Shown here in pieces: positions 3,178 through 22,000 of a DNA stretch of 46,343 nt. Within the stretch, counting starts at the first letter, position 1. The number at the start of each line of letters is the position of its first letter. Below the pieces are notes generated by a model. It did not search any database and was not told the origin of the DNA. It saw nothing but the letters and a program-made list of their open reading frames with translations. The stretch is from Clostridia bacterium (GTDB lineage: Bacteria > Bacillota > Clostridia > Oscillospirales > Acutalibacteraceae), in assembly GCA_017397125.1 (NCBI GenBank), contig JAFQKB010000049.1, forward strand, positions 1 to 46,343, written 5' to 3'. A program made the translations under genes and the position numbers.

Positions 3178-3182
3178 AGCAC

Positions 3183-3851
3183 TTAACTCCTAAAATAACT
3201 CATTTTCTTCTCCATCCAGCCGAACAGCAGAGTCAGCAGGCCGTTGAACAGCAGATAGTACAGGCCGGTGAACAGCAGCGGCCAGTACAGACCCGCCAGG
3301 CCGTGAGACCCCTTGAGAAAGGCGTAGCCGGCGTAGATGAGCTCCTGCCAGGCGATCATACGGGCGATGGCCGTATCCTTGACCAGAGTGATGATCTCGT
3401 TGGACATGGGGGGCACGATGCGCTTGATCATCTGCAGCAGCGTCACCTTGAAAAAGATCTGGCTACGGGTCATGCCCAACACCTGGCCCGCCTCCTGCTG
3501 ACCCACCGGCACGCCCTGCACGCCGCCCCGGAATATCTCGGAGAAGTAGCAGGCGTAATTGAGGATAAAGGCCACCGCCGCCGCCCAAAAGCGGCCGTCG
3601 GTCACCGCCCAGGGGTTTTGGGGCAGAATGAAGCCGGGCACGTAAAAGATGACGATAAGTTGCAGCATCAGCGGGGTGCCCCGGACGATCCACACCAGGG
3701 TGCGGGTCAGCCACCGCAGCGGCCCAAACCGGCACATAGAGCCAAAGGAGATGACCAGACCCAGGGGCAGAGCGCCCACCAGGGTGACCGCAAACAGCTT
3801 CAGCGTCTGTAAAAAGCCCTCGTTGAGGGCATTGATAACGGTTATAAACAT
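3183..3851 (-). CDS. Polar amino acid ABC importer, permease subunit
   Basis: 222 residues from ATG 3851, preceded by AAGGAT at good spacing. About five hydrophobic spans are visible, and the cytoplasmic coupling loop of HisM/GlnP permeases is present around QEAGQVLGMTRSQIF, which docks on the ATPase. The protein would form a homodimer in the membrane with the ATPase encoded downstream. Order and orientation (binding protein, permease, ATPase) fit a single operon. Confidence 0.92.
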   Translation of the reverse strand: MFITVINALNEGFLQTLKLFAVTLVGALPLGLVISFGSMCRFGPLRWLTRTLVWIVRGTPLMLQLIVIFYVPGFILPQNPWAVTDGRFWAAAVAFILNYACYFSEIFRGGVQGVPVGQQEAGQVLGMTRSQIFFKVTLLQMIKRIVPPMSNEIITLVKDTAIARMIAWQELIYAGYAFLKGSHGLAGLYWPLLFTGLYYLLFNGLLTLLFGWMEKKMSYFRS

Positions 3852-3878
3852 AATGACGTATCCTTGTATAAGGTAGAG

Positions 3879-3909
3879 CAAGCAGAGGACCGGTACGGCC
3901 CTCTGCTTG
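3879..3909 (-). other. Intercistronic stem-loop between binding protein and permease
   Basis: A 10-bp perfect stem (CAAGCAGAGG and its complement) with an 11-base loop lies between the binding protein stop and the permease start. No T-run follows on the minus strand, so it looks more like an mRNA-stabilising or partial-stop element. It would favour binding protein over permease. Confidence 0.6.
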
Positions 3910-3935
3910 GATGGTTGTATGATTGGCGGATAGGA

Positions 3936-4721
3936 TTACTTCTGCTCGATGATGGAGGCCTGCACGCCGTACTGCTCGGCGATGCGCATCATGGTGCCGT
4001 CGGCATAGGTCTTTTTGAAGAAATCGTTGAGCTTCTCCACCAGGTCAGAGCCCTTACGGAAGCCCACGCCGTACATCTCGTCATTGAGACCCACCGTATA
4101 GGTCAGGTCCGCATAGCCGGTGCCCTCGCCCACCATCGCGCCGGCCATCAGGCTGTCGATGATGGCTGCGTCGGCGGTGCCGGCCTTGACCTCATTGAGG
4201 GCCGTGGCCTGATCCAGCACGGGGGTAACGTTCTTGGCGCCCAGCAGGACCGCCTGCTCCTGACCGGCGGAGCTATCCTCCACCGCAAACTTCAGGTCCT
4301 TGACGCTCTCCTTGGTCTGGTACTGATCCGCCACATCCGCCTTGACGATGACGATCTGCTGGTTGTTGCAATAGGGGTTGGAGCAGTCCATGGCGGCCTT
4401 GACCTTATCGGTCAGGGTCATACCGTTCCACACCACGTCGATGGTCTTGCCCTCCAGCTCGAAAGCCTTGTTGTCCCACTCGATGATCTGGAACTGGACC
4501 TTGACCCCCAGCTCCTCGGCAAAGGCCTTGGCCATATCGGCGTCAAAGCCGATCCAGTTGCCGTCTGCATCCTGGTAATCCATCGGGGCAAAATCGGTGA
4601 TACCCACCACCAGGGTGCCCTTATCCTGCACGTACTCCAGATCCGATCCGGCACTGCCGCAGGCGGTCAGGCCCAGGGCCAGCAGGGTGATAGCCAACAA
4701 TACACTCAATACTTTTTTCAT
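3936..4721 (-). CDS. Amino acid ABC importer, substrate-binding lipoprotein
   Basis: 261 residues. A lipoprotein signal ends in LTACG, so the Cys after ~20 residues would be lipidated and the protein held at the outer face of the membrane. The rest is a family 3 periplasmic-binding fold: GTLVVGITDFAPMDY near the N terminus, GFDADMAKAFAEELG, and ADAAIIDSLMAG in the second lobe. GAGGAG precedes the ATG. It is the first gene of the importer operon, with its own promoter at 4769-4797. The ligand is probably a polar amino acid but is not determined by sequence. Confidence 0.93.
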   Translation of the reverse strand: MKKVLSVLLAITLLALGLTACGSAGSDLEYVQDKGTLVVGITDFAPMDYQDADGNWIGFDADMAKAFAEELGVKVQFQIIEWDNKAFELEGKTIDVVWNGMTLTDKVKAAMDCSNPYCNNQQIVIVKADVADQYQTKESVKDLKFAVEDSSAGQEQAVLLGAKNVTPVLDQATALNEVKAGTADAAIIDSLMAGAMVGEGTGYADLTYTVGLNDEMYGVGFRKGSDLVEKLNDFFKKTYADGTMMRIAEQYGVQASIIEQK

Positions 4722-6116: not shown

Positions 6117-6956
6117 TCATTTACCAAACAGCGCCAACGAGCCGGAGCGGTATTTTCGGGGGGACATATGGTATTTTTCCTTAAACAGCTTGTTGAAATA
6201 GGAGGTGTTCTCAAATCCCACGTCCAGCATGATGTCAAACACCGGCTTGTCGGTGCCGGTCAGCGCCTCCGCCACCCGCTCCAGCCGGGCGGAATTCACA
6301 TAGGCGGAGGGGGTCTGGCCACAGTATTTTTTCATGCACCGGGTCAGGTGCTCCTGGGACTTGCCGGACAGCTCCACAAACCGGGCGATGCCGCCGGGCA
6401 GATTCTCCGGCTTGCGCATCTCGTCGCAGGCGGTACGCAGCCACTGGGGCATGGTCTGCACGGGGCCGCTGCCCACCGCCACCACCGTGAGCATATCCGC
6501 CAGCAGGGTGGTCAGCAGGGTGCTCTGGACGGCAGGCGGCATCCGGCCGCTCTCGTTGCGCAGCCACTTCATTCGCCGCAAAAACTGGCGGCTGAGTTCG
6601 TGGGGCAGCACCACCGTGCGAGCCGCTGGCTCCTGCACCCCGTCGGCGCATTGCCCGGCCAGAGCCAGGGCCTGCCGGTACACCTCTGCGGAAAAGGCCA
6701 GATTGAAAAACCGCAGGGGCTGACCGCCCCGCCGCACAAAGGTGTGGCTCTCCTGGGGGAACACCAGCGCCATACAGTCGGGGGACATATCCTCGCACAT
6801 CCCGTCCCGGCCGTGCTCCAGAGCGCCCTCCTCCACGATGAATACCTCGTAAAAATCGTGGCTGTGGGGGACAGTGCGCCCATTGTCCACGATCAGCGTG
6901 CGCTCAACGTGAAACTCTTGATTGGGAAAAATATCCTGCTTGTACAATTGGTTCAT
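6117..6956 (-). CDS. AraC-family regulator with cupin sensor domain
   Basis: 279 residues from ATG 6956. The N-terminal half is a cupin-like ligand domain (VPHSHDFYEVFIVEEG, typical of sugar-sensing AraC proteins). The C-terminal ~100 residues hold two helix-turn-helix units, the second with the family signature (DVGFENTSYFNKLFKE followed by SPRKYR). It is transcribed away from the glycyl radical enzyme operon and is the obvious candidate regulator of it. The effector is not known. Confidence 0.9.
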   Translation of the reverse strand: MNQLYKQDIFPNQEFHVERTLIVDNGRTVPHSHDFYEVFIVEEGALEHGRDGMCEDMSPDCMALVFPQESHTFVRRGGQPLRFFNLAFSAEVYRQALALAGQCADGVQEPAARTVVLPHELSRQFLRRMKWLRNESGRMPPAVQSTLLTTLLADMLTVVAVGSGPVQTMPQWLRTACDEMRKPENLPGGIARFVELSGKSQEHLTRCMKKYCGQTPSAYVNSARLERVAEALTGTDKPVFDIMLDVGFENTSYFNKLFKEKYHMSPRKYRSGSLALFGK

Positions 6957-6972
6957 CGTATCACCCGATATC

Positions 6973-7001
6973 AAAATAACACATAAAAAATCAACAGTCA
7001 A
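6973..7001 (-). promoter_or_regulatory. Promoter of the AraC regulator gene
   Basis: On the minus strand TTGACT, a 17-base spacer and TATTTT precede the regulator start by ~20 bases. Confidence 0.65.
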
Positions 7002-7012
7002 GTAGAATTCAT

Positions 7013-7031
7013 CAATATATTGTTATATAAT
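7013..7031 (+). promoter_or_regulatory. -10 box and palindrome of the glycyl radical enzyme operon
   Basis: TATAAT at 7026-7031 lies 40 bases ahead of the first gene. No -35 hexamer is present at the right distance (7003-7008 reads TAGAAT). A 10-bp perfect palindrome, CAATATATTG, occupies 7013-7022 just before the -10. A poor -35 with a divergent AraC gene fits an activator-dependent promoter. Confidence 0.6.
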
Positions 7032-7071
7032 GAGAGCAGCATTATGAAAACCACGCAAAAGGAGGTGCCGT

Positions 7072-9210
7072 ATGGAAGCAAAAAAACTATTGCGCTACGG
7101 AGTCGAATTCACCCAGCGGTACCGCACCGCCACCGATAAATACACCCGGGAGGCCGCCTGCCTGGAGCTGCAGCTGCGGCACAGCCTGCTGCCCATGGAG
7201 CCCACGGATCTGGTGGCGGGACGCCACCGGCGCCTGCCCCTGGGCGTGCTGCCCCAAGAATTTTGGGGTTTGGGCTACTATATGGATGAGGCGGCCTTTG
7301 GTGCCCTGACCCGGGACGAGACCCTCTCCGCCCCGGAGCAGCAGCAGGCACAGGAGCTCATCCGCTTCTGGCACACCGAAAACACCCGCGCCAAGATCGT
7401 GGCCGCCTATCCGCCCGAATGGACGGAGGAATTTGCCTGTCAGGTGCCCTACACCACCCCCACCAACGGCTTTTTGCTGCACCGCATCAGCGGCATTCAG
7501 ATGGACCCCACCCGGCTGCTGCGGCTGGGCGTGGGAGGGCTCCTGGACCTGGTCCGGGAGAAAAGCACCGGTAATCCTGCCTTTTATGCCGGTGTTCAGC
7601 AGGCGCTGCTGCTATTGCGGGATGTGTGTCTGCGGTATGCCGATCAGGCGCAGCAGAATGGGCGTCCCGATCTGGAGGCGGACCTGCGCCACATCGCCTG
7701 GCAGCCCGCCGCAACCTTTCGCCAGGCGCTGCAGCTGGCCTATCTGTTTATGGTGGTGTCCGGCACCTGGAACTACGGCCGGATGGACCAATACCTGGGC
7801 GCCTATCTCCACCGGGATCTGGCGGCGGGCACCCTCACCGAGGAGGAGGCGCTGGACCTTCTGTCCGATCTGTGGTGCCGCATAGAGGAGCGCAACGACT
7901 ATTTCGACTCCCGGGTCATCCTGGGAGGCTGCGACCGGCCAAAGGGGGCGGACACCTTTGCCCTCTTGGCTATGGAGACCACCCGCCGCCGCCGCGGAGT
8001 GGTGCCCCAGCTGACCCTGCGGTGCTACACCGGCATGGACCGCCGCCTGTACGATACGGCCCTGGACGTGATCGGCGAGGGCACTACCTTCCCCATGCTG
8101 TACAATGACGACGTGAATATACCCGCCGTGATGGATGCCTTTGGGGTGGACGCGGCCACGGCCCAGGGCTACGTGCCCTTTGGCTGTGGGGAGTACGTGC
8201 TGTGCAATCAGAGCATCGGCACCCCCAGCGGCACCCTGCACACCCTCCACGTCCTCAACGAGCTGCTGTACGGCGACCGGGCGGAGGCGTTTCTGACCGC
8301 CGCCGATTTTGAAGAGCTGTACAACCGGTATCTGGACCGGATACGCCACCTGGCCCGCTATCAGGCGGCCCACCAAAAACTGGAGTACGACGTCTGCGGC
8401 CGAGAGTGTGCCTTTTTGTATTTCAGCATCGCCTTTGACGATTGCCTGGAGCGAGGGCTTGGTGTGCTGGAGGGCGGCCTGCGCCACCTGGGCGGCACCC
8501 TGGAGGTGTACGGCAACATCAACGCCGCCGACAGCCTCACCGCCATACGCCGGCTGGTATATCAGCAGCACACGGTCACCCCGGCCCGGATGGCCGAAGC
8601 GCTGAGAACCGACTTTGCGGGGCAGGAGCCCCTGCGCCGCCTGCTGCTGGACCAGCCCAAATACGGCAACGACCACCCGGAGGCGGATGAGATGACCGCC
8701 CGCCTGCACCGGGACGTGTGCACCATCGTCCGGGACTGCGCCCCTCAGACGGGACTGGACTCCTATCTGGTGGTGATCATCAACAACGAGCTCAACGCCG
8801 TATTCGGCACCGCCACCGGCGCCTCGGCCGACGGACGGCGGGCCGGGCAGTATATGGCCAACGGCAACAACCCCATGAGCGGCATGGACCAAAAGGGGGT
8901 CACCGCCCTGCTCAACTCCTTGGTTAAATTAGACACCCACGTCCACGCGGGCGCGGTGCAGAATATGCGCTTTTCCCGGGAGATGTTCACCACCCTGCGC
9001 CCCAAGCTAGAGGGGCTGCTCAACACCTATTTCCGCAGGGGCGGCGCCCAGAGTATGATCACGGTGCTCAGCCGCGGCGACCTGGAGGCGGCGCTCAAAG
9101 AGCCGGAAAAATACCGCAACCTGGTGGTGCGGGTGGGCGGCTTCAGCGCCCGGTTTGTGGACCTGCAGCCGGTGGTGCAGCAGGAGCTCATCCGTCGCAC
9201 ACTATACTAG
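7072..9210 (+). CDS. Glycyl radical enzyme 1 (PFL-like, C-x-E type)
   Basis: 712 residues. The active-site loop reads GYVPFGCGEY, with the radical Cys at 372 and Glu at 374. The glycyl radical site near the C terminus is RVGGFSARF, radical Gly690. A conserved GRE segment, GTATGASADGRRAG, precedes it. A Glu two residues after the Cys is known in glycyl radical eliminating lyases, dehydratases and decarboxylases (choline lyase, glycerol dehydratase, hydroxyphenylacetate decarboxylase), whereas pyruvate formate-lyase has two adjacent Cys. So it is probably not a pyruvate formate-lyase; the substrate is unknown. GGAGGTG precedes the ATG. It is the first gene of the operon and lies 16 bases before the activase. 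Confidence 0.9.
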   Translation: MEAKKLLRYGVEFTQRYRTATDKYTREAACLELQLRHSLLPMEPTDLVAGRHRRLPLGVLPQEFWGLGYYMDEAAFGALTRDETLSAPEQQQAQELIRFWHTENTRAKIVAAYPPEWTEEFACQVPYTTPTNGFLLHRISGIQMDPTRLLRLGVGGLLDLVREKSTGNPAFYAGVQQALLLLRDVCLRYADQAQQNGRPDLEADLRHIAWQPAATFRQALQLAYLFMVVSGTWNYGRMDQYLGAYLHRDLAAGTLTEEEALDLLSDLWCRIEERNDYFDSRVILGGCDRPKGADTFALLAMETTRRRRGVVPQLTLRCYTGMDRRLYDTALDVIGEGTTFPMLYNDDVNIPAVMDAFGVDAATAQGYVPFGCGEYVLCNQSIGTPSGTLHTLHVLNELLYGDRAEAFLTAADFEELYNRYLDRIRHLARYQAAHQKLEYDVCGRECAFLYFSIAFDDCLERGLGVLEGGLRHLGGTLEVYGNINAADSLTAIRRLVYQQHTVTPARMAEALRTDFAGQEPLRRLLLDQPKYGNDHPEADEMTARLHRDVCTIVRDCAPQTGLDSYLVVIINNELNAVFGTATGASADGRRAGQYMANGNNPMSGMDQKGVTALLNSLVKLDTHVHAGAVQNMRFSREMFTTLRPKLEGLLNTYFRRGGAQSMITVLSRGDLEAALKEPEKYRNLVVRVGGFSARFVDLQPVVQQELIRRTLY

Positions 9211-9226
9211 ATAAGGAAAGGAGCGG

Positions 9227-10006
9227 ATGTCTGTGGCGATCATCTTTGATATAGAGCGGAGCGCTATGCACGACGGCCCCGGCATCCGCACCGTGGTATT
9301 CTTTAAGGGCTGCCCCCTGCGCTGCCGATGGTGCCACAACCCGGAGAGCTGGGCCTTTGCGCCCCAAGAGATGTATTATCCCGAAAAGTGCATCGGCTGC
9401 GGCCGGTGCGCCGAGGGATGCTACACCGGCGCCCGGCAGCTATGCGGGCAGGACATGACCGTGGAGCAGGTGATGGCGCCCATCCTGGCGGACAAGCCCT
9501 ATTACGGCGCCGAGGGCGGCGTCACCCTGTCCGGCGGCGAGCCCCAATGCCAGCCGGAGTTTCTCAACGCGCTGGTGGACGCCTGCCGGGCAGAGGGGAT
9601 CCACACCGCCATCGAAACCTCTATGGCGGTGTACCACCCGGAGATCCTGCAAAAGCTGGATCTCATCATGGCGGACGTCAAGATATGGGACGACCGCCTC
9701 CACCAGCAATACGTGGGGGCCAGCAACCGCCCCATACAGGAGCATATCCGCCGGGCGGACGGGCTGGGAGTGCCCCTGCTCATCCGCACCCCGGTCATCC
9801 CCGGGGTCAACGACACCGAAGCGGAGATCACCGCCATCCGGGATTTTGCCCGGTCCTTAAAGAACGTGGTCGGCTACGAGCTGCTGCCCTATCACCCCTT
9901 TGGGGAGGATAAGTGGCAGGCACTGGGGCGGGAGCCGGTGCGGTTTTCGGTGCCCACCACCGAACAGATGCAAGCCCTGCGGGCCTGCGCTGTACTTAAC
10001 AAATAG
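9227..10006 (+). CDS. Glycyl radical enzyme activase (radical SAM)
   Basis: 259 residues. The radical SAM cluster is Cys29-x3-Cys33-x2-Cys36 (GCPLRCRWCHN), preceded by HDGPGIRTVVFFKG, the PFL-activase signature. A second cluster motif, Cys55-x2-Cys58-x2-Cys61-x3-Cys65, gives one extra 4Fe-4S site, the short single-cluster form of the GRE activase insert. The glycine-rich SAM-binding stretch TLSGGEPQ is present. It abstracts a hydrogen from the glycyl site of a partner enzyme. It lies between the two glycyl radical enzymes and is the only activase here, so it may serve both. Confidence 0.93.
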   Translation: MSVAIIFDIERSAMHDGPGIRTVVFFKGCPLRCRWCHNPESWAFAPQEMYYPEKCIGCGRCAEGCYTGARQLCGQDMTVEQVMAPILADKPYYGAEGGVTLSGGEPQCQPEFLNALVDACRAEGIHTAIETSMAVYHPEILQKLDLIMADVKIWDDRLHQQYVGASNRPIQEHIRRADGLGVPLLIRTPVIPGVNDTEAEITAIRDFARSLKNVVGYELLPYHPFGEDKWQALGREPVRFSVPTTEQMQALRACAVLNK

Positions 10007-10028
10007 ACTTATAGAAAGGACAACGCCG

Positions 10029-12242
10029 ATGCTGACCTACGCCGATCGATTGGCGGCTATGCGCCGCACCAAGCTGGAACACACCCAACAAAAGTTGCAG
10101 CAGAACGGCTGCGCGGATATGGACGATTTCGGCACGGTGCCCCTGCCGCCGGATTATCACGTAGAGCCCTGGTACAACAGCCGCAACGGCAGCTTTTACG
10201 GCTACGACGGTATGGCGGAGAACTTCTGCCGGGTGCTGGCTGCCCATCCACCCTATGTGGACCCCATGGAGCCCCTGTGTGGGCGGTGGCGGGATATGCT
10301 GGTCAACTACCGGGGCAACCTGCTCTTTCGTCCCGAATGGATGAAGCAGGACGCCTCCCAGCGGGACTTTGACCAAGAGGTGACCAGCCAATGGAGCAAG
10401 TGCTGGGACGAGGAGCGATTCCCCTACGACCATCTCAAACCCTATCAGGAGATGTACAACATCTCCTCCGGCATCGACAGCGACGCCCATCTGTGCTGCG
10501 ACTACCGCATCGGCCTTTCTTTGGGCTTCGGCGGTCTGCTGGATAAGATCCGCCACTACCGTACCGTCAACCCGGACAAGACCGCCTTTTACGACGCAGA
10601 GGAACGGGTGGTGCGGGCCATTATGGACTACATCCAGCGCCATATCGACGCCATCGAAGCCCTGATCCCCCAGCAGACCGACCCCGTGCTACGGGACAGC
10701 CTAGAGGAAATGCTGGTGGTCAACCGCCACATCCTCACCCAGCCGCCACGCACCCTCCACGAGGCCTGCCAATGGGTGGCTCACTTCAACTGTGCATCCC
10801 GGGTGTATACTCGGGATGGAGCCGGATTCCAGCTGGATACCATCCTGCTCCCCTATTACGAAAACGACCGAGCCGCCGGCATACTGGACGACGAAAAAGT
10901 GAAATTTCTGCTAGCCTCCCTGCTGCTCAACGATCCCCACTACTATCAGCTCTCCGGCGTGGACGCCGCAGGCAACGACCTGACCAATCACCTGTCCTAT
11001 CTGGTGCTGGAGGCGGCAGACGCCATCAACGTGTCCCTCAATCTCACCGTCCGAGTTCACGACAATTGTGACCCCGCCTTCCTCCGCCGGGCGGTGGAAT
11101 ATCTGTTCAAAAACAAAAACGGCTGGCCCCGCTTCTGCGGCGACCAGGCGCTGACCGAGGGCTATATGCGCAACGGTTACTCTCTGCAGGACGCCAACGA
11201 GCGCATCGCCGTGGGGTGCAACTGGATGTGCGTCCCCGGCAAAGAGTTCCCTATGAACGACGTGGTCAAGATCAACATCGCCAAGGTGCTGGAGCAGGCA
11301 CTCCGGGACCTGCGGCGGGAGCCGGATCCTTCGGCAGAGCGGCTGTTTGAACTATACGAAACCCACCTCAAGAAAGCCGTCGAGATCACGGCGGCGGGGA
11401 TCAATCTGCACATCGATCATCAGTGGGAGGTCACCCCGGAGCTGGTGATGAATCTGATGATGCAGAACACCCTCGAACAGGGTCTGGACATTTCCCAATG
11501 CGCCGAACTCTATTCCATCGGCGTGGACGGTGCCGGTCTGGCGGTGGTGGCGGATTCCTTCGGCGCCATCGAAACCCGCATCGAACAGGAAAGCGTGCTG
11601 ACCTGGGAGCAGCTTTTTGCCGCGCTGGAGGACAATTTTGCCGACCAGCGGATCCAGGCTATGCTGCAGTCCGCCCCCCGCTACTGTCAGGGCGGCACCG
11701 TATCCGATCGATGGGCGGTGCGGCTGACCGACAGCTGGGTGCGCCACATCAAGGCACAGCCCATGCCGGCCGGACGGCAGCTCATACCCGGCTGGTTTTC
11801 CTGGGCACTGACCCTGGAATACGGTGCGGCGGTGGGGGCCACACCTAACGGGCGACGGGCAGGAGAACCCATCTCCCACGGCGCCAATCCCAACCCCGGT
11901 TTCCGTCGGGATGGGGCGGTGACCGCCCAGGCCAACGGCATCGCCGCCGTGCAATGCCGCCACGGCAACACCGCGCCGCTACAGTTGGAGTTTGACCCCG
12001 GCATCACCGCCGAGGAAGGAGGCGTGGACCGGGTGCTGGAGCTGATCCAGGCCCATTTCCGCCAGGGCGGCACCCTCATCAACATCAACGTACTGGATAA
12101 GGACACCCTGCTGGACGCCCACGCCCACCCGGAACGGCATCCGGATCTGGTGGTGCGGGTAACCGGCTTTACTGCCTATTTTGCCAGTCTGTCTCCAGCC
12201 TTTCGCCAACTGGTGGTGGACCGGTTTCTCACCGATTCGTAA
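10029..12242 (+). CDS. Glycyl radical enzyme 2 (PFL-like, C-N-W type)
   Basis: 737 residues from ATG 10029 (AAAGGA upstream; upstream in-frame starts would overlap the activase). The active-site loop is IAVGCNWMC, placing the likely radical Cys at 397, followed by Asn398 and Trp399 with another Cys at 401. The glycyl site is RVTGFTAYF, radical Gly713. The GATPNGRRAG segment common to the superfamily is present. Unlike its neighbour it lacks the C-x-E pair, so the chemistry or substrate should differ. No known GRE class can be assigned with confidence. The next gene starts 58 bases later, with only a weak stem (AACGGCC/GG-CCGTT, 12241-12260) between. Confidence 0.88.
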   Translation: MLTYADRLAAMRRTKLEHTQQKLQQNGCADMDDFGTVPLPPDYHVEPWYNSRNGSFYGYDGMAENFCRVLAAHPPYVDPMEPLCGRWRDMLVNYRGNLLFRPEWMKQDASQRDFDQEVTSQWSKCWDEERFPYDHLKPYQEMYNISSGIDSDAHLCCDYRIGLSLGFGGLLDKIRHYRTVNPDKTAFYDAEERVVRAIMDYIQRHIDAIEALIPQQTDPVLRDSLEEMLVVNRHILTQPPRTLHEACQWVAHFNCASRVYTRDGAGFQLDTILLPYYENDRAAGILDDEKVKFLLASLLLNDPHYYQLSGVDAAGNDLTNHLSYLVLEAADAINVSLNLTVRVHDNCDPAFLRRAVEYLFKNKNGWPRFCGDQALTEGYMRNGYSLQDANERIAVGCNWMCVPGKEFPMNDVVKINIAKVLEQALRDLRREPDPSAERLFELYETHLKKAVEITAAGINLHIDHQWEVTPELVMNLMMQNTLEQGLDISQCAELYSIGVDGAGLAVVADSFGAIETRIEQESVLTWEQLFAALEDNFADQRIQAMLQSAPRYCQGGTVSDRWAVRLTDSWVRHIKAQPMPAGRQLIPGWFSWALTLEYGAAVGATPNGRRAGEPISHGANPNPGFRRDGAVTAQANGIAAVQCRHGNTAPLQLEFDPGITAEEGGVDRVLELIQAHFRQGGTLININVLDKDTLLDAHAHPERHPDLVVRVTGFTAYFASLSPAFRQLVVDRFLTDS

Positions 12243-12300
12243 CGGCCTTTTCGGTCCGTTTCAAGATATGAGTCTACATAAGAAAGGAAGCGTATACATC

Positions 12301-14295
12301 ATGAGCAAGATACGTATGAAAGTGCTTGTGCCGATCCTGTGCTGCGGGGCGCTGCTGTGCAGCGTGCTGGGTACCCTGATGGTGGCCGGCGGGGTCACCG
12401 CCATCCGGCAGGATCAGCCCACCGGCGTGGACGCCATCCTGGAGCGGGACGGATACCTGGAGGGTGTCTGGTACCCCTGGCTGACCCACCACAATCTGGG
12501 CCACGGCCTCACCTCCAACGAGCTGATGGTAAAGTACGTGGGCGATACCTGGAGCACGGTGGGCATCGAGCAGTACGGCACCACCAGCATCTACCGGGAG
12601 ATCTACAACCTCCGGGCCCTGGGCTTTAACATCCTGGGTTATGAGGGCTCCATCTACGGCGAAGGGGTCATCTACGACGACTACGGCAACGTACTGGGCA
12701 TTAAGGAGGAATACCTCAACAACGTCCGGCTGCTGCTAGACATCTGCCGGGCGGCCAAAATGTCGGTGCTGTGGACCGTCTGCTGCCACTCCACCACCCT
12801 CAACGACTATTACGAGGACGGCAAGTATGCGTGGGACGTGATCTCCCAGGCCTATGCCAACCCCGCGGTGGCCGACCAGTACGCAGAAAACTTTGTGGCA
12901 CCTCTGTGCGACGTGCTGGCGGAGTATCCGGACGTGGTGGTGATGGTGGCCGCCACCTCCGAGGCGGAGAACGAGATCAACGACAGCTCCATCGGCAACC
13001 ATTTTGAAGACATCCGCCTGCTCTACGGCGTGGACCAGGACGCCATGCTGTATTTCATTAAGCAGATCAACGACACCGTGGCCGAAAAGCTGCCGAACGT
13101 GGAACGCACCCTCTGCTCCAATTCCAGCGATATGACCATCTACAAGGATATTGAGTTCACCTATCTGGGGCGGCAGATCTACAACTACGCCGGCAACAGC
13201 TTTGATATCGGCGATATGAAGGCGGACCGGCCGATGATCGTATCCGAGTTTGGTCTGGGTGACCGCACCACGGTGACCGATGAGGCCCTCACCATCCTGC
13301 AAATGACCTTCCGGGACAATTTCCAGGCCGACGGGTATAAAGGCTGGATATACTGGTGCTGGACCCCCAATACCGGCGGCGGCCCCCACGACCTGCTGAA
13401 CAAAAATCCGCTGAACACTACGGATTTCCGCGCCTTTGCCTACACCCTGCATTATTATATTGAGGAATACCGCAACGAGCACCGGGGCGTGGAAACGGTG
13501 CTGGATGCGCCGGTTCTGTTCTGCAATACCGGCTCCGGCACGGTGGAGTGGATCTCCTCCCGCCAGGCCACGGCGCTGGATCTGCTGCGCTCCACAGACG
13601 GCGGCCAGACCTGGGTCAAGCTGCTGGATCGGGTAAGCCCCTACGACTATGAGAGCGACTTTAAGGGCGCCTACGTAGACCAGGAGATCGCCCAAAAGAC
13701 CGACGGCGGCAAGGTGATGTACAAGATGGTCGCCTACGACGACGAGGGCAACCGGGCCGACTCCGAGATCGGCAACGAGGCCACCATCCTGGGGCCGGCG
13801 GTGGATCTGATGGTCAACGGCAGCTTTGAGAACGGCCTGGACGGCTGGACCGATTGGGGCACCAACGGCGACCAGTTCTACGGCGCCGCCCTCAAGACCG
13901 ATCTGGCCCCCGACGGCGACTACGTGCTGGACTTTAAGTACACCACCAACGACTGGTACGGCCTGTGCAACGGCGGCATCGAGGTCAAGCCCAACACCAA
14001 TTATAAGGTCACCTATCAGTATTATCTGTGCGACGACGCCACCTCCAAATCCGGCTACTGCTTTATCCGCGGGCTGGGTGCGGACGACAGCGGCAACGGC
14101 CTGGGCGATATCAATGACGAGGTGCTGGCCAGCGCCTACCTCAACAAGGGTACTGTCGAAAACATCAATGGCAAATGGGTGACCGAAGAGATTATCTTCC
14201 GTACCAACGAGGGCACCAAGCTGGGCATTGATTTCCGTGTGATCAAGGGTGTGCATTTCTATATCGACAACGTCACCCTGACCGAAGTGCGATAA
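12301..14295 (+). CDS. Secreted clan GH-A-like glycosidase with Fn3-like and CBM domains
   Basis: 664 residues. A hydrophobic N-terminal signal (~residues 6-33) is followed by a TIM-barrel-like domain to ~400. Two acidic motifs are spaced 95 residues apart: SEAENEIND (Glu221, candidate acid/base) and IVSEFG (Glu316, candidate nucleophile). WCWTPN near 360 resembles the strand-8 Trp region. An Fn3-like domain (~405-495, DLLRSTDGGQTW) and one jelly-roll CBM-like domain (~500-664, LMVNGSFENGLDGW) follow. There are no wall-binding repeats, unlike its three paralogues. It follows the GRE genes and is 15 bases from the next gene. Family and substrate are inferred only. Confidence 0.72.
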   Translation: MSKIRMKVLVPILCCGALLCSVLGTLMVAGGVTAIRQDQPTGVDAILERDGYLEGVWYPWLTHHNLGHGLTSNELMVKYVGDTWSTVGIEQYGTTSIYREIYNLRALGFNILGYEGSIYGEGVIYDDYGNVLGIKEEYLNNVRLLLDICRAAKMSVLWTVCCHSTTLNDYYEDGKYAWDVISQAYANPAVADQYAENFVAPLCDVLAEYPDVVVMVAATSEAENEINDSSIGNHFEDIRLLYGVDQDAMLYFIKQINDTVAEKLPNVERTLCSNSSDMTIYKDIEFTYLGRQIYNYAGNSFDIGDMKADRPMIVSEFGLGDRTTVTDEALTILQMTFRDNFQADGYKGWIYWCWTPNTGGGPHDLLNKNPLNTTDFRAFAYTLHYYIEEYRNEHRGVETVLDAPVLFCNTGSGTVEWISSRQATALDLLRSTDGGQTWVKLLDRVSPYDYESDFKGAYVDQEIAQKTDGGKVMYKMVAYDDEGNRADSEIGNEATILGPAVDLMVNGSFENGLDGWTDWGTNGDQFYGAALKTDLAPDGDYVLDFKYTTNDWYGLCNGGIEVKPNTNYKVTYQYYLCDDATSKSGYCFIRGLGADDSGNGLGDINDEVLASAYLNKGTVENINGKWVTEEIIFRTNEGTKLGIDFRVIKGVHFYIDNVTLTEVR

Positions 14296-14310
14296 AGGAG
14301 GGAGAACGTC

Positions 14311-16653
14311 ATGAAACGATCTGTAAAACACCTGTTCATTCTGATGGCGGCGGTGATGCTCATAGCCGCACTCCCTCTGTGCACCCCGGCGCAGGCGGAG
14401 CCTATGGCGGCGCTGGCCCCTGCCGCCCGATCGGTAAAGGCCAGCAACTGGGTGCTCAACGGCGATTTTGAGACCGGCAACCTGGATAACTGGAGCGCCT
14501 GGCAGGGCACCGCCGTATCCGAAGACGCGGCCGCCGGCGGCAACTACGGCGTCCACCTGACCGGCAACGGCAGCTGGGGCGGTATGCTGCGCCAGGACGT
14601 GACGGTGCAAAAAGGCACCACCTACGTGATCACGTTCTGGGCCAAGGTGAATGCAGTGGGCGCCAACCTGCTGTTCTTCGGTGCCTCCACCGACACCCGC
14701 TATGCGCCGGCCCAGGGCAGTAACGACCTGTGGATCTCCAACACCTCCTGGAAAAAGCTGACCTACACCGTCACCCCCACCGACGACACCAAAATGGCCA
14801 TCAACTTCAGCGGTGGCGGCACCAACACGGCCGAGTCGGTGTACATCGACGAGATCACCATGTATCCCGAGGGGACCGAGCCGGACCAGCCCGATCTGCC
14901 GCCGGCAGAGCCGCTGACCCTGCTCTCCTTCGGCGTGGTCAACAACCGCCCCATGACCGAGAGCAAAAATCGCATCGACAACGGCAGCTTTGAGACCGCC
15001 GCCAGCGCCCAATGGGCAGTGGACACCTTCCTATCGGACCGGGTGTCGGTGGTGCGGGACAGCACCACCCCCGACGGCCAGCAGGCCCTCTTCTTCAACA
15101 CCTCCGGCACCACCGAGCCGGAGTGGCACGTCTTCTGGGTGGAGGTGGAGAAGAACACCAACTACACCTTCTCTGCCTGGCTGAAGGGCTCCTTCCTCTC
15201 CGCCGACAGCGTGGGACGGGCCACCATCGGCGTCATAGACCCCAATAACAAAAAATTCCTCACCATGCCCGAGAAGAACCGGGACGTGGCCGGCGGTATG
15301 TTCTCCACCAACATGCGCCAGCTGGTGCCCACCGCCTGGGACGGCCGCTGGCACCTGCGCTCGGTCACCTTTAACACCGAGGAGAAGACCACGGTGGGCA
15401 TCGCTCTGTACGGCTACGGCACCGAATTGTGGGTGGACGGCCTGGCCCTCTTTGAGGTGGGGGACGGCAAAAAGTACACCAGCGACACTATGAACGCGAT
15501 GATCTCCCCCACGGCGGAGGAGCATAAGATCGTCTGCGCCCCCGCCGACAGCCTGATCCAAAACGCCACCATGGAGGATACGGCGTCTACCTTCTGGCAG
15601 ACGGGCAACGGCTGGCAGAACGGGTTTATGGGCTTTGCAGACAACCAGTACGAATACGGTCGCTCCCTGATGTACACCGGCAGCGAAAACGCCTACGGTC
15701 TGCACTACATCCGGTGGATCGACGTAAAGCCCCATACCCGCTACACCTTCTCCGCGGACGTAAAGATCCTGCAGGACGGCGCCGGTATGCTGACACTGGT
15801 GGATGGCAAGCTACGCAGCTGCACCAACTTTATGGAGATTTCCTTCTCCTCAGAGGATTTCGGCGCCGACTGGTTCTCTCTGTGCTTCACCTTTGACACC
15901 GATGCCTTTGACGTCATCGGCATCGGCGTGTGCGACCTGGGCGGCCGGGCGCTGATCGATAACGTCCGTCTGTTTGAAGCCGAGGACGGCGCCCCCGGCG
16001 AGGACACCTTTGTGGCCCGGGCGGACGGCTGGTATCAGGAAAACGGCCAGTGGGCCTATTACGAGAACGGACGCAAGGTCAAAGCCGCCTGGAAAAAAGA
16101 CAGCGTCGGCTGGTGCTATCTGGATGCGGACGGCTATATGGCCATCAACCAGTGGATCATGGACAGCGTCGGCTGGTGTTACGTAGGCGGTGACGGCTAC
16201 TGCGTCACCAATAAGTGGGTCGCTGACTCCGTTGGCTGGTGCTATCTGGACGGTAGCGGCCGGATGGTCACCAACAAGTGGATCATGGACAGCGTCGGCT
16301 GGTGCTATGTTGGCGGCGACGGCTATTGCGTCACCAACAAGTGGGTGGCGGACAGCAAGGGCTGGTGCTATCTGGACGGTAACGGCCGCATGGCCACCAA
16401 CCAATGGATCGCCGACAGCAAGGGTTGGTGCTACGTGGACGGCAGCGGCTACTGCGTCACCAACCAGTGGGTCAAGGATTCCAAGGGCTGGTGCTATCTG
16501 GACGGCGACGGCCGGATGGTGTACAGCCGGTGGGTGGACCACGGCGGCAAGCGGTACTATATCAACGCCAGCGGCTATATGGTCACCGGCAAGCAGACCA
16601 TCGGCGGCAAACAATACACCTTTGACGCCTCCGGCGCGTGTATCTCCGGCTGA
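14311..16653 (+). CDS. Secreted CBM protein with wall-binding repeats, no catalytic domain
   Basis: 780 residues. A signal peptide ends near residue 29 (CTPAQA). Three jelly-roll CBM-like domains follow: ~45-195 (NGDFETGNLDNWSAW), ~208-390 (LLSFGVVNNRP to DGLALFE) and ~400-560 (NATMEDTASTFW to IDNVRLFE). Residues ~575-780 are choline/glucan-binding-like repeats that would hold the protein on the wall. The second and third CBM-like domains and the repeats match the C-terminal half of the three fused paralogues. Together with the gene at 12301 it therefore looks like a split version of those. AAAGGAGGG precedes the ATG. A terminator at 16687 closes the unit. Confidence 0.82.
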   Translation: MKRSVKHLFILMAAVMLIAALPLCTPAQAEPMAALAPAARSVKASNWVLNGDFETGNLDNWSAWQGTAVSEDAAAGGNYGVHLTGNGSWGGMLRQDVTVQKGTTYVITFWAKVNAVGANLLFFGASTDTRYAPAQGSNDLWISNTSWKKLTYTVTPTDDTKMAINFSGGGTNTAESVYIDEITMYPEGTEPDQPDLPPAEPLTLLSFGVVNNRPMTESKNRIDNGSFETAASAQWAVDTFLSDRVSVVRDSTTPDGQQALFFNTSGTTEPEWHVFWVEVEKNTNYTFSAWLKGSFLSADSVGRATIGVIDPNNKKFLTMPEKNRDVAGGMFSTNMRQLVPTAWDGRWHLRSVTFNTEEKTTVGIALYGYGTELWVDGLALFEVGDGKKYTSDTMNAMISPTAEEHKIVCAPADSLIQNATMEDTASTFWQTGNGWQNGFMGFADNQYEYGRSLMYTGSENAYGLHYIRWIDVKPHTRYTFSADVKILQDGAGMLTLVDGKLRSCTNFMEISFSSEDFGADWFSLCFTFDTDAFDVIGIGVCDLGGRALIDNVRLFEAEDGAPGEDTFVARADGWYQENGQWAYYENGRKVKAAWKKDSVGWCYLDADGYMAINQWIMDSVGWCYVGGDGYCVTNKWVADSVGWCYLDGSGRMVTNKWIMDSVGWCYVGGDGYCVTNKWVADSKGWCYLDGNGRMATNQWIADSKGWCYVDGSGYCVTNQWVKDSKGWCYLDGDGRMVYSRWVDHGGKRYYINASGYMVTGKQTIGGKQYTFDASGACISG
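16090..16530 (+). repeat. Wall-binding repeat array 1 (7 x 63 bases)
   Basis: Seven in-frame 63-base units, each counted from one conserved Trp codon to the next. They alternate between a GWCYLD type with one Cys and a GWCYVG..GYC type with two Cys, in the order LVLVLVL. Ten Cys in total. Confidence 0.9.
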
Positions 16654-16686
16654 TCCTACCGAAATAAAACAAGCAAAAGCACCGCA

Positions 16687-16720
16687 AGCCGGGGCGTCGT
16701 GTGCGACGCCCCGGCTATTT
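16687..16720 (+). terminator. Terminator of the glycyl radical enzyme/secreted protein unit
   Basis: A 13-bp perfect stem (AGCCGGGGCGTCG and its complement) with a TGTG loop is followed by ATTTT. It is the first strong terminator after the promoter at 7026. Confidence 0.82.
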
Positions 16721-16751: not shown

Positions 16752-16781
16752 TTGACATAATATAAACCCTCGTGCTATTAT
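16752..16781 (+). promoter_or_regulatory. Promoter of the LRR surface protein gene
   Basis: A consensus TTGACA, an 18-base spacer and TATTAT stand about 47 bases upstream of the start codon. Confidence 0.72.
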
Positions 16782-16828: not shown

Positions 16829-18901
16829 ATGAAACGAGTATTATCCACCCTATTGGCTATGGTGCTGCTGCTTCTGCTGATCCCCGCCGGGGCGATCACC
16901 GCCTATGCGGCCGAGTTTGAATACCAGTATGTGGCGGTGGACGGTGGTGTGCAGATCACCGGCTATACCGGCACACCCTCCGGCGCCCTGGTCATCCCCT
17001 CCACGCTGGACGGCCAGCCGGTGGTGAGCATCGGTACCCAGGCCTTTATTAATTGTGAAGAGATCACCAGCCTCATCATCCCCGACAGCGTCCGCTTTAT
17101 CGGCAACGAGGCCTTTCTAGGCTGCACCGCCCTGGAGACGGTGGATCTGGGTGAGGGTGTCACCACCCTGGAGTGGAACCTGTTCGTCAACTGCATCGCT
17201 CTGACGCAGATTGTGGTGCCCGCCAGCGTGGTGGACATGCCCGGCGACGCCTTTGCCTCCTGCCCGGCATTGACGGAGATCGTGGTTGAGGAGGGCAACC
17301 CCAATTATTCCTCCCGCGACGGTGTTCTGTACAATAAAGACGGCACGGTGCTGCTGTGCTGCCCCGGCGGCCTGGAGGGCTCGTTTGTGGTACCGGACGG
17401 CGTACAGGAGATTGGTGCCTGGGCGTTTCAGGGTTGCCTGCATCTGACGGATATAACCGTGTGGGATTCGGTCACCGCCATTGGCGAGGGCGCATTCTAT
17501 CAGTGCTTTGGGCTACAGGAGATCTATCTGCCCGCAGCGATCACGCAAATTCAGAACTACACCTTCCAGGAGTGCGAGAGCCTGACGGATGTGTGGTATG
17601 GCGGCACGCTGGAGGATATGTTTGTGCTGGAGTTCGGGGCAGAAAACGATTTCTTTTTGATGACCGACTTCCATCTGGAGTCCTATGGCCTAGGCCTGCA
17701 GAATGGCTGGACCGTGGGCGAGGAGGCCTTCTACACCCCGGACGGCGAGCTGGTGGCGAACCAGTGGTTCGAGCTGATGGGCGTCTGGATGTATCTGGGT
17801 GCCGACGGCATGCCGGTCACCGACCAATGGGTCAAGGACGACATCGGCTGGTGCTACCTGAACGAATACGGCTATCGGGCCTTTAACTGTTGGGCCGAGC
17901 GCGATGGCAAGGTGTATTTCTTGGATGAGACAGGCCATATCGCTAAAAACACGTGGGTGCTGGACGAATACGGGTATTCGTACGTAGACCGTGATGGCGA
18001 CCGTGTTTATAATAATTGGATCGTGAGCGATCACGACTGGTACTATGTGGGCGACGACGGCTATATGGTGATCAGTGGCTGGGTATTCTATGGCGATATG
18101 TGGTATTTCATGGACGAATACGGAAGGATGATGCGAGATACTAACGGCTGGGTTTATGACAGCTACGGCTGGGGCTATTGCGGCGGCCAGGGATCTCGCT
18201 GGTTTGAAACCTGGGCTACTAAAGACGGAAAAAGGTGTTATATTGACGTTGATGGTTATGTAGTCACGAACAAATGGAAAATGATTAACGGTAAGTGGTA
18301 CTACTTCGACAAAGACGGCTATATGGCCACCAACCAGTGGCTGAAAGACAGCATCGGCTGGTGCTATGTCGGTGCCGATGGCATTATGAAGACCAACGCT
18401 TGGGTCAAGGACAGCCAGGGCTGGTGCTATGTCGGGGACGACGGCTATTGCGTCACCAACAAGTGGGTGGCGGACAGCAAGGGCTGGTGCTATCTCGATG
18501 GTAGCGGCCGGATGGTCACCAACAAGTGGATCATGGACTCCGTGGGTTGGTGCTATGTTGGCGGCGACGGCTATTGCGTCACCAACAAGTGGGTGGCGGA
18601 CAGCAAGGGCTGGTGCTACCTGGATAGCAATGGCCGGATGGTCACCAACAAGTGGGTCGCCGACAGCAAGGGCTGGTGCTACATCGGCAAGGATGGTTAC
18701 TGCCTGACCAACGCCTGGCAAAAGGACAGCAAGGGCTGGTGCTATCTGGACGGCGACGGCCGGATGGTGTACAGCCGGTGGGTGGACCACGGCGGCAAGC
18801 GGTACTATATCAACGCCAGCGGCTATATGGTCACCGGCACCCACACCATCGGCGGCAAACAATACACCTTTGATCAGAACGGTTCTTGTAAAATCTCTTG
18901 A
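16829..18901 (+). CDS. Secreted BspA-like leucine-rich-repeat protein with wall-binding repeats
   Basis: 690 residues from ATG 16829 (AAAAAGGAG upstream). A signal peptide ends near AITAYA (~residue 28). Residues ~45-285 are LRR_5/BspA-type repeats, with units such as IGTQAFINCEEITSLIIPDS and IGNEAFLGCTALETVDLGEG, a fold often used for adhesion. The rest (~300-690) is a long run of wall-binding repeats. The first ten or so units are strongly diverged and richer in A/T (17900-18330); the last seven are nearly identical to those of the neighbouring genes. The C-terminal cap after the array matches the caps of the genes at 14311 and 19026. It is probably a wall-attached adhesin or binding protein. 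Confidence 0.85.
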   Translation: MKRVLSTLLAMVLLLLLIPAGAITAYAAEFEYQYVAVDGGVQITGYTGTPSGALVIPSTLDGQPVVSIGTQAFINCEEITSLIIPDSVRFIGNEAFLGCTALETVDLGEGVTTLEWNLFVNCIALTQIVVPASVVDMPGDAFASCPALTEIVVEEGNPNYSSRDGVLYNKDGTVLLCCPGGLEGSFVVPDGVQEIGAWAFQGCLHLTDITVWDSVTAIGEGAFYQCFGLQEIYLPAAITQIQNYTFQECESLTDVWYGGTLEDMFVLEFGAENDFFLMTDFHLESYGLGLQNGWTVGEEAFYTPDGELVANQWFELMGVWMYLGADGMPVTDQWVKDDIGWCYLNEYGYRAFNCWAERDGKVYFLDETGHIAKNTWVLDEYGYSYVDRDGDRVYNNWIVSDHDWYYVGDDGYMVISGWVFYGDMWYFMDEYGRMMRDTNGWVYDSYGWGYCGGQGSRWFETWATKDGKRCYIDVDGYVVTNKWKMINGKWYYFDKDGYMATNQWLKDSIGWCYVGADGIMKTNAWVKDSQGWCYVGDDGYCVTNKWVADSKGWCYLDGSGRMVTNKWIMDSVGWCYVGGDGYCVTNKWVADSKGWCYLDSNGRMVTNKWVADSKGWCYIGKDGYCLTNAWQKDSKGWCYLDGDGRMVYSRWVDHGGKRYYINASGYMVTGTHTIGGKQYTFDQNGSCKIS
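18338..18778 (+). repeat. Wall-binding repeat array 2 (7 x 63 bases)
   Basis: The homogeneous C-terminal part of the longer repeat domain. It has seven units of exactly 63 bases and ten Cys. The first unit is less typical (VGADGIMKTNAW). Confidence 0.88.
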
Positions 18902-19025: not shown

Positions 19026-22000
19026 ATGCGTAGCAAAATGAAAATGCTGACCTCGGTGCTGTGCACTGTGGCTCTGCTGGTGAGCATGGTCACCCCGGCC
19101 TTTGCTGCCAAAGACGGTGCCCTTCCCCGGAAAGAGGAGGCCACCCTGCTGGATCAGATCCTGGAGCGGGACGGCTTTCTGGACGGCATCTGGTATCCCT
19201 GGCTGTTCAACGGTCAGGGCGGACACAGCCTGACCGGCAACGAATTTATGGCGCTGTACCACGGTGACGAATGGGCTCGGCCCGCCCTGGACGAAAAAGG
19301 CGCCGATATCGTATACCGCAGCATCTACAATCTGAAGGCTATGGGCTACAATATGATGGCCTACGGTGGCTCCTTCTGGGGTGAGGGCGTGGTTTATGAC
19401 CAAAACGGCGACGTGTTGGGCATCAAAGAAGACTATCTCGTCAACGCCCGCCGTCTGCTGGATATGTGCCGCGAGATCGGTATGCCGGTAATGTGGCTGG
19501 TGTATTTCCATTCCTCCGATATATCCAATTACTACGGTATCGAGGCGTGGCATTATATCACGCAGATGTACGCCAACCACACAATAGCGGATCACTTCGC
19601 CGACCGTTTCGTGCGGCCTCTGTGTCAGATGCTGGCCGAATACCCGGATGTGGTGGCGATGGTTGCCATCACCGATGAGCCTGAAAACGAGATCAACGAC
19701 AACGACGTAGGCGACCGCTTTGACGGCAACCGCTCCCATTACGGCACCACCCAGGAAAACGTTCAATATTTCGTCACCGCGATCAACAACGCAGTGAAGG
19801 AGGAGTTGCCCGATATGCCCCGCACGGTGGCACCCAATACGGACGACCTCTCTTTCTACGGATCGCTGGACCTGGATCTGGTGGGCCGCAACCGCTACGA
19901 CAGCATCGGCTTGGTGCCGGATATGTCCAACTATATGACCAGCGCACCTATGCTCCTGACCGAGTATAATCACCCCAACGGCGGCTCTTTGGCCGATGAC
20001 ACCTATACGATGGTGCTCCAGACTTTCCGCAAAAATATGATGCAAAAGGGATTCGTAGGCGGTTTTCAGTGGTGCCACCTGCCGGACAATTTTGACGGCG
20101 CCCACTATCTGCAGAAAAGAAACGGACGAAGCGAAACCGATTATCGCTCCACCGTATACGATCTTTATTATTATATGACCGACTACCGCAACGAACACCG
20201 GGGCGTGGAGACGGTGCTGGATACCCCCAGCCTGTTCTGCATTGACGGCAGCGGCAAGGTGGAATGGATCCCGGCCCGACAGGCAACCCAAATGGATCTG
20301 CTCCGCTCGGACGACGGCGGCAACACCTGGATCAAGCTGCTGGACAACGTAGATCCCGCCCGGTACACCGACGCCGACGGCAAGGGCGTATACAAGGACA
20401 CCACCGCCCCCAAATCCGGCTATATGTACAAGATCGTGGTCCGGGACGGCAAGGGCAACGAGGTAGCCTCCACCCCCTCCAACAAAGCCGGCGCCGATAA
20501 GGCTCATATACGAGAACTGCTCCCCGTCAGCATGCCGATCAGCGATCTGGGTGAGGATAAGCTGCCCCGCATTTCACGGCAACAGGCCAAGTTGCTCAGC
20601 TTCGGTGCCCTAAACAACCGTCCTATGAACGCCTCGGACAACCTTCTTCTCAACTGCAGCTTTGAGGAGACCACCGGCGGCCAGTGGAACAACAACACGT
20701 TCCTCAATGAGTACATCCGGGTGGTGGAGGATCCCACCGCCCCCAACGGCAACAAGAGCCTGTATTTTGACACTTCCGCCACCGGCGAGGACGGCTGGTA
20801 TTCCTTTACTGTAGATGTGGAGCCCAACACCGACTACATATTTTCTACCTGGCTCAAGGGCGCCTATATCGCCGACGATAACCGGGCCAAGAGCAACCTC
20901 GGTATCATCGACCCCGAGGTCGGGATGTATATGGTCTACTGGGATCTGTATAGCGGATATGCCCGGGCCTCCCGCCGAGATCAGCAGATCTATCCGCCCT
21001 CTTGGGATAACGAATGGCATCTGCGCTCGGTGGTGTTTAACAGCGGCGAGTACACCCAGATCACCATCGCTCTGCGCGGCTATTCTTCCAAGATGTGGGT
21101 GGACGATATGGCCCTGTTCCGCCGCGACCAGGGTGTTAAGTATACCAGTGAAAACCTGGGCGGTAGCGTGTCCATATCAATGAATATAGAATACGACTCC
21201 TGTGCCCCGGAATACAGTCTCACCGAAAACGTGACCATGGAGGACCGCACCTCAACCTACTGGTTGTCCGACTCCTGGGATAACGACACGCTGAGCCTGG
21301 TGGATTCCAACAGCAGCCACGGCACGGTGCTGAAATACACCGGCGTCGAGGAAACGCGTGGCTTCTATTACATCAAATGGATCGACGTCAATCCGCATAC
21401 CGATTACATCTTTGCGGCAGACATTCGGGTGCTGAGTAACGGTGGCGGACGGCTTATGCTGTTGGACGACCGAAAGGCCGGACCCCGCCACATTATGCAA
21501 TACGATTTTAACACCGACTGGTTTGGCGAAGATTGGTTCCATATCGGATTGGCCTTTGATTCCGACGCCTACACCCGCATCGGCATCACCATCTTCGACG
21601 ACGGCGGCGAGGTGCTTCTGGACAACATCCGCCTGTTTGAGGCTCAGAACGGTAGCGCCTACCGGGACGAGCCGTCCGGCTGGGCGGACGACGGCCTCGG
21701 CTGGCGGTATTACGAAAACCACTATCCGGCCATTTCCAAGTGGATCAACGACGGCTCCGGCTGGTACTATCTGGACGAGGAGGGCTATATGGTGACCAAC
21801 TGCTGGAAGAAGGATTCTGTGGGCTGGTGCTATCTGGATGCCAGCGGCCGTATGGCCACCAACAAGTGGGTTACGGACAGCGTTGGCTGGTGTTACGTCG
21901 GTGGCGACGGCTACTGCGTAACCAACAAGTGGGTGGCCGACAGCAAGGGCTGGTGCTATCTGGACGATCAGGGCCGCATGGTCACCAACAAGTGGATCAA

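Follow-up and report, generated by a model that had tools for sequence, protein, structure and literature searches.

We analysed a stretch of 46,343 nucleotides from a Clostridia bacterium of the family Acutalibacteraceae (contig JAFQKB010000049.1 of assembly GCA_017397125.1; hereafter the window), which carries an apparent operon of two glycyl radical enzyme (GRE) genes, one activase gene and two genes for surface-type proteins with carbohydrate-binding modules (CBM), divergent from a gene for an AraC-family regulator (Table 1). Between the promoter region on the AraC side and a strong intrinsic terminator lie five open reading frames (ORFs) on one strand, separated by 16, 22, 58 and 15 bases. 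These coordinates agree with the original prediction, made from the letters alone, and its claim that no strong terminator precedes position 16687 holds as well. The terminator folds with −31.8 kcal/mol (z −6.4), the stretch 12236-12300 between GRE2 and GHa folds no better than its shuffles (z −0.7), and a scan for promoters and terminators makes no call within 12243-12300. We count the tight spacing and the lack of a strong terminator before 16687 in favour of a single unit, and the five genes are probably co-transcribed. The promoter proposed at 7026 fared less clearly: a −10 hexamer TATAAT is present at 7026-7031, but the −35 element is weak and the site is not listed by the sigma-70 scan. 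Likewise, wall-bound CBM proteins had been announced in the plural; the operon holds one protein with wall repeats, and the leucine-rich repeat (LRR) protein and the long paralogues GHb, GHc and GHd lie beyond the terminator, where a promoter-like site (16752-16781, 11/12) precedes the BspA-type LRR gene.

Table 1 Features at the locus, with positions in the window
Feature	Position	Strand	Basis or remark
AraC-family regulator, divergent from operon	6117-6956	-	HTH_18/AraC_binding (Pfam)
Regulatory region	6957-7071	+	ATCAA repeat, AGTCAAG stretch, −10, Shine-Dalgarno before 7072
GRE1, glycyl radical enzyme	7072-9210	+	PFL-like 1.6e-78, Gly_radical 3.4e-21 (Pfam)
Radical-SAM glycyl-radical activase	9227-10006	+	Radical_SAM and Fer4 (Pfam)
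GRE2, glycyl radical enzyme	10029-12242	+	PFL-like 1.1e-87, Gly_radical 3.9e-16 (Pfam)
GHa, predicted secreted GH-A-like protein, C-terminal CBM4_9, without wall repeats	12301-14295	+	CBM_4_9 1.3e-8
Surface protein, CBM4_9 and choline-binding-type repeats	14311-16653	+	Pfam; 7 GW[CY]Y matches
Strong intrinsic terminator	16687-16716	+	13 pairs
BspA-type LRR protein with choline-binding repeats, next unit	16829-18901	+	past terminator
Three long GHa paralogues with choline-binding repeats	19026-29172	+	past terminator
GHb	19026-22361	+	
GHc	about 22469-25756	+	
GHd	25891-29172	+	

The two GREs belong to separate families, neither of which coincides with a characterised enzyme. In both, the thiyl Cys and the RV[GT]GF loop align and the PFL-like and Gly_radical domains exceed their cut-offs. 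GRE1 has the Cys in GCGE and the glycyl loop RVGGFSARF; GRE2 reads GCNW where GCxE is expected and has the loop RVTGFTAYF. The GCxE motif, with its Glu two residues past the thiyl Cys, is typical of eliminase-type GREs. Neither window GRE reaches a curated cut-off of the NCBIfam families CutC, HypD, HpsG/HpfG, HPAD, IAD or PFL: against the full-length GRE equivalogs they score 69-206 bits (cut-offs 994-1150), and against the subfamily TIGR01774 they score 258.7 and 256.4 bits (cut-off 678.2). The best match among protein sequences in the PDB is PflD for GRE2 and glycerol dehydratase, followed by YbiW, for GRE1. A tree of 77 rows resolves two groups, one of GRE1 and 28 relatives and one of GRE2 and 20 relatives, each with support 100 and both apart from YbiW and PflD. 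The tree was built by a quick method with SH-like approximate likelihood ratio support (SH-aLRT), has long branches and includes YbiW and PflD as the only named references; the GRE2 family entered it with its full 20 rows, GRE1 with 28 of its 82. We therefore rejected a placement in any named family, since neither GRE reaches the NCBIfam cut-off for a characterised enzyme and both lie outside the YbiW/PflD clade. (The start of GRE2 is the ATG at 10029; the query used in the searches began at 10032, one codon short.)

The thiyl site follows the two clades. It reads GC[GT]E in 28/28 aligned rows of the GRE1 clade, and a plain motif search over the 82 GRE1 rows finds GCGE in 79 and GCTE in one, with two not read as such. 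In the GRE2 clade it reads GC[NH]W, without the Glu, in 20/20 aligned rows; YbiW and PflD have GCIE and GCVE. Eight other GREs of the family sample carry GCNQ at this site (L021-L023, L026-L028, L030 and L033, the count being matched to a tree clade of eight) and make up another group without the usual Glu. Relatives of GRE1 were gathered by an alignment-based scan of a genome contig collection (484 pattern matches, 435 relatives, best 80 kept), and the taxa named among them include Bacillota, Bacteroidota, Ignavibacteria, Planctomycetota, Verrucomicrobiales, Spirochaetes, Anaerolineae, Citrobacter and Buttiauxella. Members of the two families occur on different contigs in G135 and G095, and the only loci at which we observed them adjacent to each other belong to the genus of the window. 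At one other locus (L083:5797-10234), a tandem GRE2-type pair with one activase lies near an alpha-L-fucosidase.

The single activase exceeds the cut-off of TIGR02494, and a CX3CX2C motif can be read in it. In a tree of 49 activases, which used 34 of 56 GRE1-linked rows, the activases of the window and of the two related loci described below nest among GRE2-linked ones (12 rows plus these three, 100/97) and away from the 34 GRE1-linked activases, one of which (L136) is sister to the GRE2 group. By its position in this tree the activase is of GRE2-type descent, so that the block arose when a unit of activase and GRE2 became linked with a GRE1 unit. GRE1 must then rely on this activase or on one encoded elsewhere in the genome, and it is likely that GRE1 and GRE2 share the one activase.

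We compared the locus with a family sample of 200 genomes and an order sample of 394, own genome included in each and drawn evenly. The own draft genome (1.8 Mb, 86% complete) has three PFL-like matches, namely the pair in the window and a high-scoring one at the edge of contig C15. The same block occurs in two metagenome-assembled Clostridia genomes, one (L085) from the rectum of a sheep and one (L089) from the cecum of a goat: AraC divergent from GRE1 (68% identity), then the activase (69-70%) and GRE2 (80-81%). These two blocks rule out an adjacency peculiar to one genome. RpoB identity to the own genome over 503 residues is 91% for the genome of L085 and 88% for that of L089, next to 90% for the congeners G027 and G153. 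Both loci also carry GH paralogues on the contig that holds the GREs. At L089, a long GH begins 34 bases past GRE2, a strong terminator (18229-18258) closes it, and a GHa-CBM pair comes next. Over its full length this long GH is nearest to GHd (42%); its catalytic part is 54% identical to GHa and nearest, at 59%, to a copy on contig C21 of the own genome.

Among ten genomes of the genus, own included, three have a GRE2 orthologue of at least 80% identity, and all three fall within the four that have the GH family (24, 8, 9 and 7 matches); three further genus genomes have weak GRE2 matches only (24-29%). Co-occurrence of the GRE pair with the secreted genes in relatives, which the original prediction had named as a check, is thus found, with the GH family in 3/3 genus members that have a GRE2 orthologue and GH paralogues on the GRE contigs. 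An orthologue of the AraC regulator (55-59% identity) is present in single copy in each of the three other GH-family genomes and in none of the six genus genomes without the GH family, save a match of 32% identity, interrupted by a stop, in G567. By Fisher's exact test on the genus counts, uncorrected for kinship, the value for co-occurrence with GH is 0.005 for AraC and 0.033 for GRE2.

The regulatory region contains an ATCAA direct repeat at 6970 and 6990, spaced by 20 bp, and the repeat and the AGTCAAG stretch are kept in L085, L089 and L250, a locus of G568. The −10 hexamer is TATACT in L085 and L089 and has diverged in L250 (TAGTAT in the aligned columns). In G568, the fourth GH-family genome, the AraC orthologue (59%) is divergent from a GH-CBM pair made up of a GHa-like gene (46%) and a CBM gene (31%), and the ATCAA repeat (20-base spacing) and AGTCAAG precede this pair, not GRE1. 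No GRE lies at this locus, where for GRE1 the reading covered the AraC and GH loci of G568, and G568 has no GRE2 match at 1e-30. The same regulator and operator block precedes the surface genes in one genome and the GRE operon in three others, and AraC probably controls the operon.

We scanned the neighbours of both GRE clades for protein domains, leaving out proteins that match GRE1, GRE2, activase or AraC, partial ORFs and ORFs below 150 aa. Around GRE2 relatives (109/109 proteins, 17 loci), Gfo/Idh/MocA proteins are found 14 times and xylose-isomerase-like TIM barrels 6 times. Around GRE1 relatives (111 of 148 chosen proteins, a random subset, with 78 loci considered), we found Gfo/Idh/MocA 6 times, aldo-keto reductases and ROK proteins 5 times each, parts of the phosphotransferase system (PTS) 3 times, and GH2, GH5, GH130 and alpha-amylase domains twice each. 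In a distant control of genes 6-10 kb away on the same contigs (106/106 proteins, 72 loci), Gfo/Idh/MocA is outside the 25 families listed, which limits it to at most 2/106. The gene caller sometimes chose an antisense frame, as happened with RpoB and with the AraC genes of L085 and L089, where tblastn settled the frame, so that some of the scanned neighbours may be antisense ORFs; it called GRE1 at 75 of the 80 kept loci, and the other five were dropped from the first GRE1 neighbour count.

Carbohydrate genes recur near both GRE families, also in single cases. GH92, GH38, GH42 and an FGGY kinase lie near GRE1 relatives, and a fucosidase lies near a GRE2 pair. In G134 a GH5/42-type gene begins 31 bases past the activase, where the GRE1 match is a 61% fragment. 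The premise that GRE operons are not accompanied by glycosidases was too strong, as some GRE1-family loci lie near GH2, GH3, GH5/42, GH38 and GH92. A fused PTS EIIABC adjoins the GRE1 relatives of Citrobacter and Buttiauxella (L162, L164), which offer a possible cultivable way to the GRE1 substrate. The own genome has five Gfo/Idh/MocA matches, with a TIM-barrel ORF (AP_endonuc_2) beside one on each of contigs C55 and C54; on C55 (L249:484-6938) the tail of a GHb-like protein, the Gfo/Idh/MocA gene, a xylose-isomerase-like TIM barrel and an LRR/GW-repeat protein follow one another on one strand, so that the two kinds of gene that usually accompany GRE2 in other genomes stand there between two GW-repeat-type proteins. 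We count this arrangement in favour of the glycan reading; as intracellular partners of the operon we set these genes aside, since nothing ties them to it.

GHa has a signal-like N-terminus by eye and no GW match. No Pfam glycosidase family reaches its cut-off on GHa (best Cellulase, E 0.014), and we did not name the family by Pfam. A PDB profile search matches part of a GH5 mannanase (2c0h, E 1e-4, profile positions 36-150), the other profile hits being weak (E 0.18-1, one of them unrelated), and two residues, E221 and E316, are invariant in 17/17 relatives. On the partial profile match and the two Glu, GHa may belong to clan GH-A, and the earlier description as a secreted glycosidase needs this correction. 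The family has 24 matches at E 1e-30 or better in the own genome, four of them in the window. Outside the genus it was found in 1/199 other genomes of the family sample (G161, 24-26% identity) and in 0/393 others of the order sample (E 1e-12, one paralogue as query). Genes near GHa paralogues on contig C35 of the own genome encode a GntR regulator, a ROK kinase, a GPI-type isomerase and a GH2-type protein; on C21 the paralogues have ATP-binding cassette (ABC) permeases and a DUF5696 protein nearby. The two ABC permeases and the DUF5696 protein (L051:15591-19724) are a possible importer of released saccharides. The long paralogues of the own genome end in GW choline-binding-type repeats, and those of L085 and L089 have a Pro/Thr-rich linker and, by eye, a C-terminal membrane helix, so that the anchor seems swapped. 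Beside these two loci, a transglutaminase-like protein with a type I dockerin (L085:502-2601, L089:6625-9012) hints at a cellulosome-like assembly.

We assign a probability of about 0.6 to the reading that the locus is an AraC-controlled glycan-utilisation operon that combines cutting at the surface, uptake and two radical steps inside the cell. The AraC regulator would sense a sugar, and the GH-A-like enzyme and its partner with CBM and GW repeats would bind and cut a glycan at the cell surface. The released saccharide would be taken up by an importer encoded outside the operon, and GRE1 and GRE2, both armed by the single activase, would then act by radical elimination or cleavage. Their substrate would be a sugar, a sugar alcohol or a keto-sugar, to judge from the contexts of the two clades, and the order of the steps is the one proposed here. 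The original prediction had a glycan or glycoconjugate cut at the surface and a released aglycone or sugar acid cut by radical chemistry inside. Its functional tie of the GRE pair to the secreted genes is supported by the co-occurrence, by the AraC and operator block of G568 and by the carbohydrate neighbours; its choice of an aglycone or sugar acid is not, and to judge by the clade neighbours a sugar, a sugar alcohol or a keto-sugar is the likelier substrate. More tentatively, the GRE2 clade, with its GC[NH]W site and its Gfo/Idh/MocA and TIM-barrel context, might carry out a novel radical reaction on keto-sugars or glycosides, such as cleaving a sugar ring or a glycosidic bond without hydrolysis, and in this genus might be wired with GRE1 into the glycan programme of the cell surface so that one activase arms two successive steps.

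Several observations weigh against a glycan-utilisation operon. The operon contains no gene for a sugar importer, a kinase or a downstream enzyme. The ABC genes at 2374-4721, upstream of AraC, are of the SBP_bac_3 kind; importers of this kind are mostly of the amino-acid type, and we do not name these genes as the sugar importer. (A related ABC set lies in G245, L191:4745-6873, about 2.6 kb from a GRE2 relative, with a solute-binding protein 40% identical.) Parts of sugar-type ABC transporters also occur among the distant control genes, so that part of the enrichment around the GREs belongs to the whole region. The three GRE loci come from one genus only and are therefore not independent cases. 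In G568, seven GH matches without a GRE2 match at 1e-30 mean that the surface genes do not need GRE2. At L085 no GH follows GRE2, and its GHs sit beyond AraC; in the own genome, the 24 GH matches make a chance adjacency less unlikely than it would be for a rare gene.

The last two of these points, together with two others, also speak for a positional accident, in which the promoter is shared by mere position: one of the many GH genes of the lineage came to lie downstream of the GREs, and these act on something unrelated. The gene behind GRE2 differs between loci (GHa in the window, a long paralogue at L089), and the GH-CBM pair of G568 stands at a locus without a GRE, its GHa-like gene being no clear orthologue of the window GHa (51.6% to this protein, 53.1% to a C21 copy). 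The accident would, however, have to coexist with one and the same AraC and operator block in front of the GH-CBM pair in G568 and of the GRE operon in three others, with a regulator limited to the four GH-family members of the genus (apart from the weak, broken match in G567), and with carbohydrate genes near both GRE clades elsewhere; we regard it as unlikely, though it keeps a real share of the probability. In another rival reading the GREs would be lyases of anhydrosugar phosphates, as YbiW and PflD are, and would be supplied with an anhydrosugar that the glycan releases. The PDB matches (PflD best for GRE2, YbiW second for GRE1), the GCxE kept in GRE1 and the PTS genes beside the GRE1 relatives of Citrobacter and Buttiauxella, as with pflD in E. 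coli, are in line with this. Both window GREs fall in clades apart from these two enzymes, though, GRE2 lacks the Glu, and no PTS domain is present among the 33 window ORFs scanned, which leaves this proposal improbable. We hold it very improbable that the surface proteins serve adhesion or wall remodelling while the GREs ferment a small molecule derived from the host. The choline-binding-type repeats, the neighbouring BspA-type LRR protein and the lack of a Pfam glycosidase family at cut-off would suit such a role; the two Glu invariant in 17/17 GH-like proteins, the partial GH5 mannanase match, the CBM4_9 domains and the kinase, GH2-type, isomerase and permease genes near the paralogues on C35 and C21 argue against it.

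If the glycan-utilisation reading is true, radical chemistry would extend to glycan catabolism in the hindgut. The operon, its regulator and the operator block provide a defined handle for finding the substrate, and the missing Glu makes a new reaction of GRE2 testable. To our knowledge, characterised GREs act mostly on small molecules and are often encoded in microcompartment or fermentation operons; in open-licence papers we found no description of a GRE/glycan operon of this kind.

The window GREs share their superfamily and glycyl-radical domain with choline trimethylamine-lyase, trans-4-hydroxyproline dehydratase, sulfopropanediol dehydratase and hydroxyphenylacetate decarboxylase, but unlike these four they stay far below every NCBIfam equivalog cut-off. 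GHa resembles clan GH-A, nearest by profile to the GH5 mannanase, in its two invariant Glu; it differs in having no Pfam GH family above cut-off and in a family nearly confined to one genus among the genomes searched. Gram-positive polysaccharide utilisation loci (gpPULs) are defined by a regulator, a carbohydrate-active enzyme and a sugar importer in one locus. Like them, the locus unites a regulator with surface carbohydrate-active-type proteins, and paralogues elsewhere in the own genome have ABC permeases or a ROK kinase close by. Unlike them, the operon has no sugar importer, the nearest importer among the 33 window ORFs being the SBP_bac_3 set, and its intracellular enzymes are two GREs. 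The pflD gene of E. coli sits with PTS genes and the regulator gene yijO, whose product we take to be of AraC type. PMC12441222 describes the cleavage of anhydrosugar phosphates by YbiW and PflD through glycyl-radical chemistry, and a reaction on sugars is thereby plausible in GREs of this type. These 1,5-anhydroglucitol- and anhydromannitol-6-phosphate lyases of E. coli resemble the window GREs in the adjacent activase gene, in the GCxE kept by GRE1 and probably in a sugar-derivative substrate. They differ in clade and in the thiyl site of GRE2, and the window combines two GREs with one activase gene in an operon that has secreted GH-like and CBM proteins and no PTS gene. This grouping of two uncharacterised GRE families with surface proteins of glycan type points to an undescribed form of anaerobic glycan breakdown.

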